IMG/VR virus record: IMGVR_UViG_3300002136_000006 | Span: 1-38,272 of that record | Strand: one strand, 5' to 3' | DNA length: 38,272 nucleotides | Source: a virus | Part shown: positions 34,718 through 38,270 of the stretch, in pieces | Position numbering within the stretch: the first letter of the stretch is position 1 | Layout of the letters: each line of letters opens with the position of its first letter | Made by a program: the position numbers and the translations under genes | The notes under the pieces: generated by a model | Database searches by the model: none | What the model was told of the DNA's origin: nothing | The model's input: the letters and a program-made list of their open reading frames with translations, nothing else

Positions 34718-35752
34718 TTAGTGGGTATCACCCCAAGTTCTGCCGATGTCGGTTGACCCAGCAAGTGGACACAGTATACTTAGTTTCTTTCCCGTGTCAA
34801 CAATAGATTGTCGTTGAATGTTACCTAATAGTTCAGCATCATTCATACTACCCTCTACTTCAGTCTGCCATTCATCGTGAGGCCAAGTAACTAACTTATA
34901 CTTGATGCCTAACTTACGAGCAGCAGTAGTCCAAGTGATAGCTGAGTGTTTCATAACGACAGCCTCACCATTCTGTAGCATCCCAGCCAATGCCTTATGC
35001 TCAGATGGTACGGGAACCTTACGTCCATCTAATCCTCTGAACCATCCACGCTTAGCAACGTGAGGTATAACCTTCTTCTTCAAGTCAGATAGCCCTTGGA
35101 TGGAGTTCATAAAGTTATCAATAGCTTCACCAGCTTCACGTTGATTAACCTTTAAGATCGTAGCTACCTTAGCCACACCTGCACCCAGTAGGAAGGCGTA
35201 GATAAAAGTCTTAGCCATATCTCTAGTAACATGAGAGATGCCCAAAGCTTTACGGTTAACATTATGAATATCAGTTTCATCCTCTTTCCTCCCACTTACA
35301 ATGGCGTGAATGTATTCATCTGACTTCATTAGGTGAGCAAGGATACGTAGTTGTATACCCTCAGCATCTGTACCTACTAAGTAGTTGCCATCCTCTACTG
35401 TCCATAGGCATCTCATACGTCCATCATACTCAGACTTCACTGTCTCAACAGCAGTCTTAGGTGTGCCGTGGAAGGCAGCAGGTATGTTAGCCTGGTTGGG
35501 TGCTGAGTGAGCCATACGTCCAGTCCATGCACCGATGTGTGTGAACCTACCATGAATACGACCGTCATCCTTAACGTGTTTGATCCACTCCTCTAGGCTT
35601 GAACGTCTACCCTCTAGGGTTAACCACTCAGCTAGGTTACGTCCACCTTCAGGTGCATCCTCAGGTAAGGTAGACAGGTTCATCTCGTTACACTGCCAGC
35701 CATACCTAAGAAACTTTTCTCCACGAGGATCTATTTGCTTGCTGTCTTTCAC
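34718..35752 (-). CDS. DNA polymerase A, polymerase domain (separate frame, GTG start)
   Basis: A 344-residue frame with the whole polymerase part: motif A 'YLVGTDAEGIQLRILAHLM', motif B 'RDMAKTFIYAFLLGAG' and motif C 'WPHDEWQ', ending as T7 gp5 does. The residue equal to E. coli Phe762 is Tyr, as in T7. The start is GTG at 35752 with GGAG (35763-35760) seven bases before it, an ideal ribosome site. It overlaps the exonuclease frame by 47 bases and lies one base forward of it (+1). The natural protein would be one chain if a +1 shift (or a one-base sequence error) joined the two frames, otherwise two subunits. Confidence 0.9.
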   Translation of the reverse strand: MKDSKQIDPRGEKFLRYGWQCNEMNLSTLPEDAPEGGRNLAEWLTLEGRRSSLEEWIKHVKDDGRIHGRFTHIGAWTGRMAHSAPNQANIPAAFHGTPKTAVETVKSEYDGRMRCLWTVEDGNYLVGTDAEGIQLRILAHLMKSDEYIHAIVSGRKEDETDIHNVNRKALGISHVTRDMAKTFIYAFLLGAGVAKVATILKVNQREAGEAIDNFMNSIQGLSDLKKKVIPHVAKRGWFRGLDGRKVPVPSEHKALAGMLQNGEAVVMKHSAITWTTAARKLGIKYKLVTWPHDEWQTEVEGSMNDAELLGNIQRQSIVDTGKKLSILCPLAGSTDIGRTWGDTH

Positions 35753-36608
35753 GTTCCCACTCCATATGTCCCTTAGTCTTATCCACTGGTGTCCATCCTG
35801 CTTCCCATAGCCTGTCGATCCTCTGCTGAGGTGACGATGGTTCGAATCTCTTCCAGTCGTAACAGACTAACTCATCATCTACTACGTAGCTAGTCACATA
35901 CTTATGCTTAGCAGCAGCTACGTTAGAGTACAGTTCTCCATCTGCCTTAGTCCTATACTTAATCCTATTAACTTCCTCTAGCTTAGGTGGGAAGTCATGT
36001 TGGAATCCATTCTCTAAGTCAGACATGGACAGCTTAACCTCAGCTAACATATCAGTAGCCTCATCTAGGTTAAACTTAAAGCCATTGCCTGTCATCTCCT
36101 CACATAAGATCTGTATGTCATGCTCACATCTTAGTGCCTTCTGCCATTCAGGATCATTGATAACACTCTCAAATTTTCTGAAAAGTTTTACTGTTACCTT
36201 CACATCCTGGATGCAGTAGTCAACCATCTCTTGCGAGTAGTTCGCAAAGTCTTTGAAGTCTCCCTTCCAACAGTTAAGTCTTACTCCCCACTCCTTAAGG
36301 CTATGCCCATCCTTGATACCGTAGTCTATAAGTCGACTAACAATAAGGGTATCAACAACAGAGCTAAGGCTAATGCAATCCTCTGCGACCAACCTGTTAA
36401 TAACGGGTACATCAAAACCAATACCATTGTGGAAAACAAAGGTGTCAACTGTCCTGCAGTATTCAATGAATCTCTCCTTCTCTTCTTGTACATGAGCTAC
36501 ATGGGTAAAGGTATTCATTTCCCCAGTGTCTATGTCCTCAGTGCAGATCACCCATATCCTATCAGGGGTAAGGTTCTCCGTCTCAATGTCCATTGCTACC
36601 CTACTCAT
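35706..36608 (-). CDS. DNA polymerase A, 3'-5' exonuclease domain and polymerase N-terminus
   Basis: A 300-residue frame when started at 36608, where AGGA lies six bases upstream and the conserved sequence begins; the longer frame from 36653 runs back into the upstream gene. DnaQ-like motifs are intact: Exo I 'MDIETENL' (Asp7, Glu9), Exo II 'FHNGIGFDVPVI', Exo III 'YCIQDVKVTVKLF'. After about residue 150 the sequence continues into the polymerase thumb region ('GNGFKFNLDEATDML', 'WEAGWTPVDKTKGHMEW'), then the frame stops at TAG 35706. Proofreading for the polymerase encoded by the overlapping downstream frame. Confidence 0.9.
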   Translation of the reverse strand: MSRVAMDIETENLTPDRIWVICTEDIDTGEMNTFTHVAHVQEEKERFIEYCRTVDTFVFHNGIGFDVPVINRLVAEDCISLSSVVDTLIVSRLIDYGIKDGHSLKEWGVRLNCWKGDFKDFANYSQEMVDYCIQDVKVTVKLFRKFESVINDPEWQKALRCEHDIQILCEEMTGNGFKFNLDEATDMLAEVKLSMSDLENGFQHDFPPKLEEVNRIKYRTKADGELYSNVAAAKHKYVTSYVVDDELVCYDWKRFEPSSPQQRIDRLWEAGWTPVDKTKGHMEWERERQQANRSSWRKVS

Positions 36609-36813
36609 CGTCATTCCTATTAAGTATAGCATTCCATATAATCTCAAGGACATTATAGGGCCATATGATAGACACTAACATAATTTTAAAGCCATTGTAT
36701 CCATCAGTATCTGTTAGCATGAGTACTGTAATGACGTGCCAGTAGTACAGGAAGAGACCTAAGAAGTAGAAACTTCCTGCTGCTGTAGCCATATAATTAA
36801 TTTCAATCATCAT
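36601..36813 (-). CDS. Small membrane protein between helicase and polymerase
   Basis: A 70-residue protein coupled by TAATG to the primase-helicase gene. It has two hydrophobic segments, about 10-34 ('GSFYFLGLFLYYWHVITVLM') and 43-63 ('KIMLVSIIWPYNVLEIIWNA'), ending with acidic 'NRNDDE'. It is not recognised. A two-segment membrane protein in the replication block might tether the replisome or affect the host envelope; this is only inference. Its stop region overlaps the polymerase start. Confidence 0.6.
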   Translation of the reverse strand: MMIEINYMATAAGSFYFLGLFLYYWHVITVLMLTDTDGYNGFKIMLVSIIWPYNVLEIIWNAILNRNDDE

Positions 36814-38270
36814 TAGTAGTTACCACCCTTCTCACTCAGTGTAAACGTATCGGAGTTAAAGAATAGCTGACCAGCGTATCCCGTTGAACCTGTCGGTCTG
36901 TTCTTTATTACTAACAATTCCGTGGTGTTACGGGCATCAGCATCGTCTGCCATCTTGTCCCTCTTTAGCTTGATAACAACGGAGGCTCTCTTGCCAATCA
37001 TACGAGAGTCACGGATAGCCCCATCATCATTCTCATGTGCGATAGTAACGATACCTACATTAAGTTCAGCCGATAGTCTAGCAAGTTTAGTAGCTAGCTG
37101 CGACAAGAATTGTTCTGCACTCTCATCACCCTGTCGTGAGTAGGCTAAGTCTTGGATAGGTTCAAAGAATATGTAGTGTACACCACACGCCTGAGATAGA
37201 AAGCGTATCTGTTCAAGGATAGAGTTAGGATCATCATCAACACCAATGGTAAACTGGTAGAGGTTCTCCTTCTCAGTCATTAACTTGATAGCATCATCGA
37301 CCTCAGTCTGATTAGTAATCAAGTCCCTACGAGTTACGTTCTTATCAAGTTGGTAGGAGGCTAAGCCTAATAGACTTCTCTTCTTAACCTCTTCCATGTG
37401 ACATATAGCAATAGGTATGTTGTCGTGGTGCATGAGTAGGTTAAACTCTAGGAACCTCATGAACTCAGTCTTACCTATGCCCTCAGGTGCTTGGAATACT
37501 GTGAAGTGTCCCCTCATTAGGCCCAGGATTACATCATCTAATGCTTGGATACCTGTAGATAGGTAGCTGCTATCATCTTCATCATGTATGATAGATAAGA
37601 ACTGTTCAGTCGTATTGAATATGTTCTCAGGTATATACTTCTGTGCATTCCACCATGCACTAGAGTATTCCTTAGTAGCACCAGCCTGAAGGAACTCATT
37701 GGCATCCTTATACTTATCATGAGGTACGTTATACACACGGTTAGGAAAGATGTTAGCTAACTTATGAGCGACACCATCTGACTTACCATCACTGTCGAAG
37801 GAGAGGTAGATCTTCTCGAAGCTACCAAGCCAGTCCTTACACTTCTCGAATAGCTTACCCGATGGGGTAGCTGATGGCAGTGATACGACAGGATACTTTG
37901 AACCTAACATCTGATAAGCTGACAGTGCATCAAGCTCACCCTCAGTGATGGTCACTGCCTTAGCACAACCAGCATTAAACTTATCCATACCAAAGAGTTC
38001 ATCCCCTTTGAAGCCACCCTCAGCACGGAAAGATTTAGGTAGTGTCCTTACCTTCTTACCACCAGCAGGGTAGATGTAGTCTTGCTTTACTGGCTCACCA
38101 TTAGCATCGACATATGTAGTGACGTTATAGTAAGCCATCACATCCTTGTTGATGTCACGGTATCCTCTAATGACTGGTGTTAGTAAGTTCTCTACGACAG
38201 ATAGCTTAGTCATAGTAGAAGTAGTAGTAGAGTTAACTGCTACTCTCTCCTCATTCATTGAGTAAGCAGT
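36813..38270 (-). CDS. Primase-helicase, T7 gp4-like (5' partial at right edge)
   Basis: The frame is open to the right edge: four sense codons precede the first visible ATG at 38258. The visible 481 residues start at the point that corresponds to about residue 65-70 of T7 gp4 ('VIRGYRDINKDVMAYYNV'), so the zinc-binding primase domain is outside the window. Present are the TOPRIM primase core ('TITEGELDALSAYQML' with Glu107, 'LSFDSDGKSDG') and the DnaB-type helicase with Walker A 'FQAPEGIGKTEF' (about 255-266), 'HYIFFEPIQD' and 'VGIVTIAHENDDGAIRDSRM'. The first Gly of the P-loop is Ala. It unwinds DNA and makes primers for the polymerase encoded downstream. Confidence 0.93.
   Translation of the reverse strand, partial: TAYSMNEERVAVNSTTTSTMTKLSVVENLLTPVIRGYRDINKDVMAYYNVTTYVDANGEPVKQDYIYPAGGKKVRTLPKSFRAEGGFKGDELFGMDKFNAGCAKAVTITEGELDALSAYQMLGSKYPVVSLPSATPSGKLFEKCKDWLGSFEKIYLSFDSDGKSDGVAHKLANIFPNRVYNVPHDKYKDANEFLQAGATKEYSSAWWNAQKYIPENIFNTTEQFLSIIHDEDDSSYLSTGIQALDDVILGLMRGHFTVFQAPEGIGKTEFMRFLEFNLLMHHDNIPIAICHMEEVKKRSLLGLASYQLDKNVTRRDLITNQTEVDDAIKLMTEKENLYQFTIGVDDDPNSILEQIRFLSQACGVHYIFFEPIQDLAYSRQGDESAEQFLSQLATKLARLSAELNVGIVTIAHENDDGAIRDSRMIGKRASVVIKLKRDKMADDADARNTTELLVIKNRPTGSTGYAGQLFFNSDTFTLSEKGGNY

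Follow-up and report, generated by a model that had tools for sequence, protein, structure and literature searches.

A T7-type family-A DNA polymerase probably made as two chains, with a thumb–palm break shared by marine Cobavirinae-type phages

Phage replicases that work in pieces are already known. The replicase of the Aeromonas T4-like phages 25 and 44RR is split into two genes, gp43A and gp43B, whose products in phage 25 co-purify and polymerise, and a seg homing endonuclease is associated with them (PMC2988022); unlike the enzyme described here, it is an unrelated polymerase of family B. Phage Aeh1 carries a homing endonuclease (mobE) in its split NrdA, which is still a functional phage enzyme (PMC2988022) but is a ribonucleotide reductase and not a polymerase. 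The Methylophilales phages MEP401 and MEP402 (Zobellviridae) have a family-A DNA polymerase split into two ORFs that flank a small third one (PMC10580990). Their break lies elsewhere, in the palm just before motif A, and thus represents a separate event. The best solved match to our enzyme, in sequence as well as in fold, is T7 gp5, which differs in being a single chain and about 75 residues longer. The Veravirus split is also known in the form of GenBank ORFs: the records of the isolates Lentibacter phage vB_LenP_ICBM2 and Roseobacter phage CRP-5 list an exonuclease-part and a polymerase-part ORF that overlap, with the same break as in our sequence. The papers describing these two phages neither discuss the split nor contain the word 'split', and the ICBM2 paper counts one 'DNA polymerase' (PMC6775973, PMC6918029). 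Our literature search found no account of a polymerase split in the Cobavirinae.

The window, by which we mean the whole stretch of DNA analysed, is a virus record in itself, of 38,272 bases. Its polymerase locus (Table 1) very probably encodes a T7-type family-A replicative polymerase that is made as two separately translated chains and assembles into one enzyme. The palm and fingers (PF00476) with motifs A, B and C are present, as is a 3'-5' exonuclease with acidic motifs (PF01612; DIET/GFD/YCIQD) joined to a thumb that is seen in the T7-like model; in place of a single polypeptide, which is usual for family A and not strictly defining, there are two ORFs in different frames. They overlap and are broken between the KTKGH and YGW motifs, as in the Veravirus-type split. 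The sequence-only reading had proposed a break between exonuclease and polymerase frames here, with a GTG in the +1 frame opening the latter and GGAG seven bases ahead of it. The ORF boundaries, the overlap and the position of GGAG bear this out, and the GGG that it noted near the start is present, although at 35758-35756 and not at 35759-35757. For the upstream chain, ATG 36608 (or 36614) is the probable start in preference to the 36653 of the mechanical ORF.

Table 1. Coordinates of the split polymerase locus and its upstream context in the window
Feature	Coordinates	Strand	Remarks
Exonuclease+thumb ORF (upstream chain)	36608→35706	-	PF13482/PF01612 (Pfam); exonuclease motifs DIET, HNGIGFD, YCIQD
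Palm+fingers ORF (downstream chain), family-A DNA polymerase, GTG start	35752→34718	-	PF00476, E=6e-33; motifs TDAEG, KTFIY, HDE; T7 polymerase is the best solved match
Two-gene overlap, 47 nt, +1 frame, coding for the inter-domain linker	35706..35752	-	
GGAG, Shine-Dalgarno-like, 7 nt ahead of GTG	35760..35763	-	
GTG start codon of the polymerase chain	35750..35752	-	CGT+G at this place in 8/8 distinct junctions of the window's clade (not phylogenetically independent)
TAG stop of the exonuclease-thumb chain	35706..35708	-	
KTKGH codons, last conserved motif ahead of the break, corresponding to the 'KYTDKG' loop of T7	35766..35780	-	
Primase-helicase gene, upstream context	36813..38258	-	PF03796/PF13155

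The cut had been supposed to fall between the proofreading and polymerase domains, which is not the case. When the fused CRP-4 enzyme is aligned to T7 polymerase, the break falls in the loop that follows T7 'GWVPTKYTDKG', at the thumb–palm junction, with the thumb mostly on the exonuclease chain; the upstream chain ends in KTKGH-MEWERERQQANRSSWRKVS followed by its stop. When the window's two pieces were folded as one chain, joined at an arbitrary point of the overlap for folding only, the model had a mean pLDDT of 93 and a pTM of 0.88, and the two lowest ten-residue blocks (means 73 and 75) were residues 281-300, around the join. T7 polymerase was the best PDB match to this joined model (E=1.6e-36, TM about 0.77). 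The upstream product is thus predicted by the model to comprise the exonuclease and most of the thumb, rather than proofreading alone, and the downstream chain alone lacks most of the thumb because the break lies in the thumb–palm loop. Where relatives have a fused enzyme, a linker of 14 to 33 residues occupies this stretch and shares no sequence across clades, and such a variable linker would fit a place that tolerates a cut. The basic tail of the exonuclease chain gave no clear signal of a docking peptide, its mean charge being +2.0 in overlapping forms versus +1.5 in fused linkers. In the mechanism we propose, one chain would supply the 3'-5' exonuclease and thumb, and the other, comprising palm and fingers, would be initiated at GTG 35752, using a separate ribosome site within the end of the first gene. 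The two would then fold together non-covalently into one Klenow/T7-like enzyme, in which the sole missing covalent link would be the flexible, variable-length thumb–palm loop.

Among the classified relatives, 198 were fused, 109 were split with an overlap (109/109 in the +1 relation), 14 were split with a gap of 50-700 nt and 8 were split further apart, class counts that follow the choice of queries rather than natural frequencies and include some contigs under more than one locus. Three contigs from other samples that are 98-100% identical to the window (L008-L010) have the same break. The closest cultured phages are CRP-5 and ICBM2 (genus Veravirus, subfamily Cobavirinae, Zobellviridae), with 72-73% identity in the polymerase chain; Veravirus members are phages of Roseobacter-group bacteria. 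In CRP-4, CRP-13 and CRP-9, the polymerase is one fused ORF. Judged from sequence comparison, the break common to 109 overlapping relatives shows that the two-piece enzyme is real and long-lived and no product of faulty sequencing. An intact gene in relatives had been named as evidence that would speak against two chains; such relatives exist, but they fall mostly in separate clades, and many closer relatives are broken. The comparison supports the earlier leaning towards a genuine two-chain polymerase over an error or a frameshift.

The ribosome site had been judged better placed than chance, and an ATG or GTG in the +1 frame with a Shine-Dalgarno match of at least 4 nt at 5-10 nt indeed appeared in only 3.7% of synonymous shuffles of the exonuclease codons; by itself, the site is suggestive and not proof of two chains. 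Conservation of the start and of the break in relatives appears more telling than the shuffle statistic. In the sister clades, the exonuclease frame reads Tyr and then Glu or Asp, and TAT precedes the G in 42/42 distinct junctions (32% background among the Tyr codons of these clades), giving a polymerase-frame ATG; in the window's clade, Tyr is replaced by Trp and this ATG is lost, and the next Arg is CGT before G in 8/8 distinct junctions (21% background among the clade's Arg codons), giving GTG, although neither set of junctions is phylogenetically independent. The clades are, however, distant enough from one another that synonymous sites are well mixed (dS of about 0.6 or more between the main members of the window's clade). 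GGAG is absent from L011-L013, which have AAGGA 8 nt ahead of the GTG in its place. The purine-rich AAAGGA in the KTKGH codons, compared between forms as a putative ribosome site under selection, tends to occur in fused and distant forms too.

Programmed +1 ribosomal frameshifting in the overlap, which would yield one fused polymerase with or without a short product, is the alternative that survives best, and we consider it unlikely. Every overlapping member has the +1 relation, a constancy that is also expected of a frameshifted gene and to that extent counts against two chains; the joined product would make a complete enzyme, and one cognate-slip codon, AAA+G, lies near the stop of the window's exonuclease frame. 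However, the AAA+G of the window's clade is not found at the same place elsewhere, and the conserved slippery site in the overlap that, together with a stimulator, marks genes with programmed +1 frameshifting was not found among 21 overlapping representatives, for which slip codons only were considered: they have no cognate +1 slip codon in common, and L053 and L192 are without any. The stop contexts vary, and it is the start codon that is kept instead. The conserved start, strong purifying selection (dN/dS of 0.04-0.11 on both chains) and the lack of a conserved cognate +1 slip favour separate translation over both an error and programmed frameshifting.

The case for separate chains is made most decisively by relatives in which no shift could join the halves. 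Frameshifting is impossible there because an endonuclease gene is inserted or the halves lie kilobases apart. In L064, L067 and L069, an HNH+HTH gene occupies the junction, and in L079-L085 an Endonuclease_7 (endonuclease-VII-type) gene does; in both groups, the polymerase begins at a new ATG. Phage T5S1-k141_653015 has 2.7 kb, with the primase-helicase and smaller ORFs, between its exonuclease and polymerase genes, and in L006, L183-L186 and L201 a primase-helicase ORF stands between halves that are about 1.5-3.2 kb from each other. Across the T5S1-like clade, the distance ranges from about 0.25 to 3.2 kb, and the break still lies between the KTKGH and YGW motifs. With an endonuclease gene or, in this clade, the primase-helicase gene between them, the pieces must work in trans. 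The unlinking of the two genes in one clade could also be taken to mean that the upstream chain is a free exonuclease and that polymerisation by the downstream chain relies on a different thumb or on a partner from the host. This we regard as quite improbable, since the thumb is always kept up to KTKGH at the palm junction, which a free exonuclease would not need.

Two explanations that deny a working split have still less to recommend them. That sequencing or assembly put a single-base error into an intact gene would be conceivable for a metagenomic contig with fused relatives, but contigs assembled independently of one another and two sequenced isolates show the identical break, and the tails and start vary between clades like evolving sequence; for the clade, ICBM2, CRP-5 and many contigs rule it out, and for the window we give it hardly any weight. 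That a recent inactivating frameshift left a decaying pseudogene is just as hard to credit: compared with T7-type polymerases the gene is indeed interrupted, but both chains show the low dN/dS given above, every catalytic motif is retained, the break persists through the whole clade, and a search of the record with the polymerase chain returned one match and no second polymerase.

The history of the preferred two-chain arrangement can be partly followed in the tree. The window falls within a clade that comprises 21 split representatives (support 84/83) and whose sister is the fused pair L204/L219, and fused forms predominate outside this clade; the existence of a fused sister also counts against the two-chain model. 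The fused polymerases sister to the split Veravirus clade were L204, L206, L209, L210, L213, L214, L219, L222, L223 and L225-L228, and they may represent a re-fused gene, the tree being compatible with either history. Another split line, L207, branches outside a fused clade without significant evidence of an origin of its own (AU p=0.064), whereas a single origin of all splits is rejected once the T5S1-like splits are counted in (AU p=2e-80). That a homing endonuclease originally caused the split is unsupported for this clade: the inserts lie nested among overlapping relatives that have none (L056 beside L064, L063 beside L079) and are thus probably later than the split, although an older element may have been lost. 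The review of T4-like phages notes the same uncertainty for gene 43 of phage 25 (PMC2988022). More tentatively, the thumb–palm loop may be a recurrent split site, with at least two independent breaks, one lineage whose halves became separated around the primase-helicase, two different endonuclease entries and perhaps re-fusion in L204/L219; the split may allow separate amounts of exonuclease-thumb and polymerase.

Family-A replicases split in this way, the thumb staying with the exonuclease chain, appear to be long-lived and common in marine Cobavirinae-type phages. New here are the conservation of the split, its conserved start and structural site, its recurrence, its invasion by two kinds of endonuclease and the separation of its halves. 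Stages of a replicase becoming two subunits are thereby caught: overlap, endonuclease invasion, full separation and a fused sister. These phages offer a natural test of how far the coupling of polymerase domains depends on a covalent link, and the thumb–palm break is a ready-made split site for engineering.

Several further observations concern the junctions themselves. HNH+HTH_7 and Endonuclease_7 are two unrelated endonuclease families that were separately inserted into the same exonuclease/polymerase overlap. In L064, GATCGTGGAGATAA is present on either side of the HNH gene. Within L069:2729-3630, a frame change interrupts the exonuclease gene itself, and the HNH gene is frame-changed relative to L064 and L067; together these point to an assembly error or to a copy in decay. 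The exonuclease–polymerase gaps of L006:1252-3983, L183:1936-5001, L184:1781-5001, L185, L187, L193 and L194 hold runs of small ORFs (about 60-90 aa), which are otherwise different but nearly all end in '(hydrophobic)-P-x-E-F/Y-hydrophobic', for example VPKEFLS and LPGEFFG. In L006, the PKEF codons contain AAGGAG directly ahead of the next start, and the common ending may be a side effect of encoding the ribosome site of the following gene.
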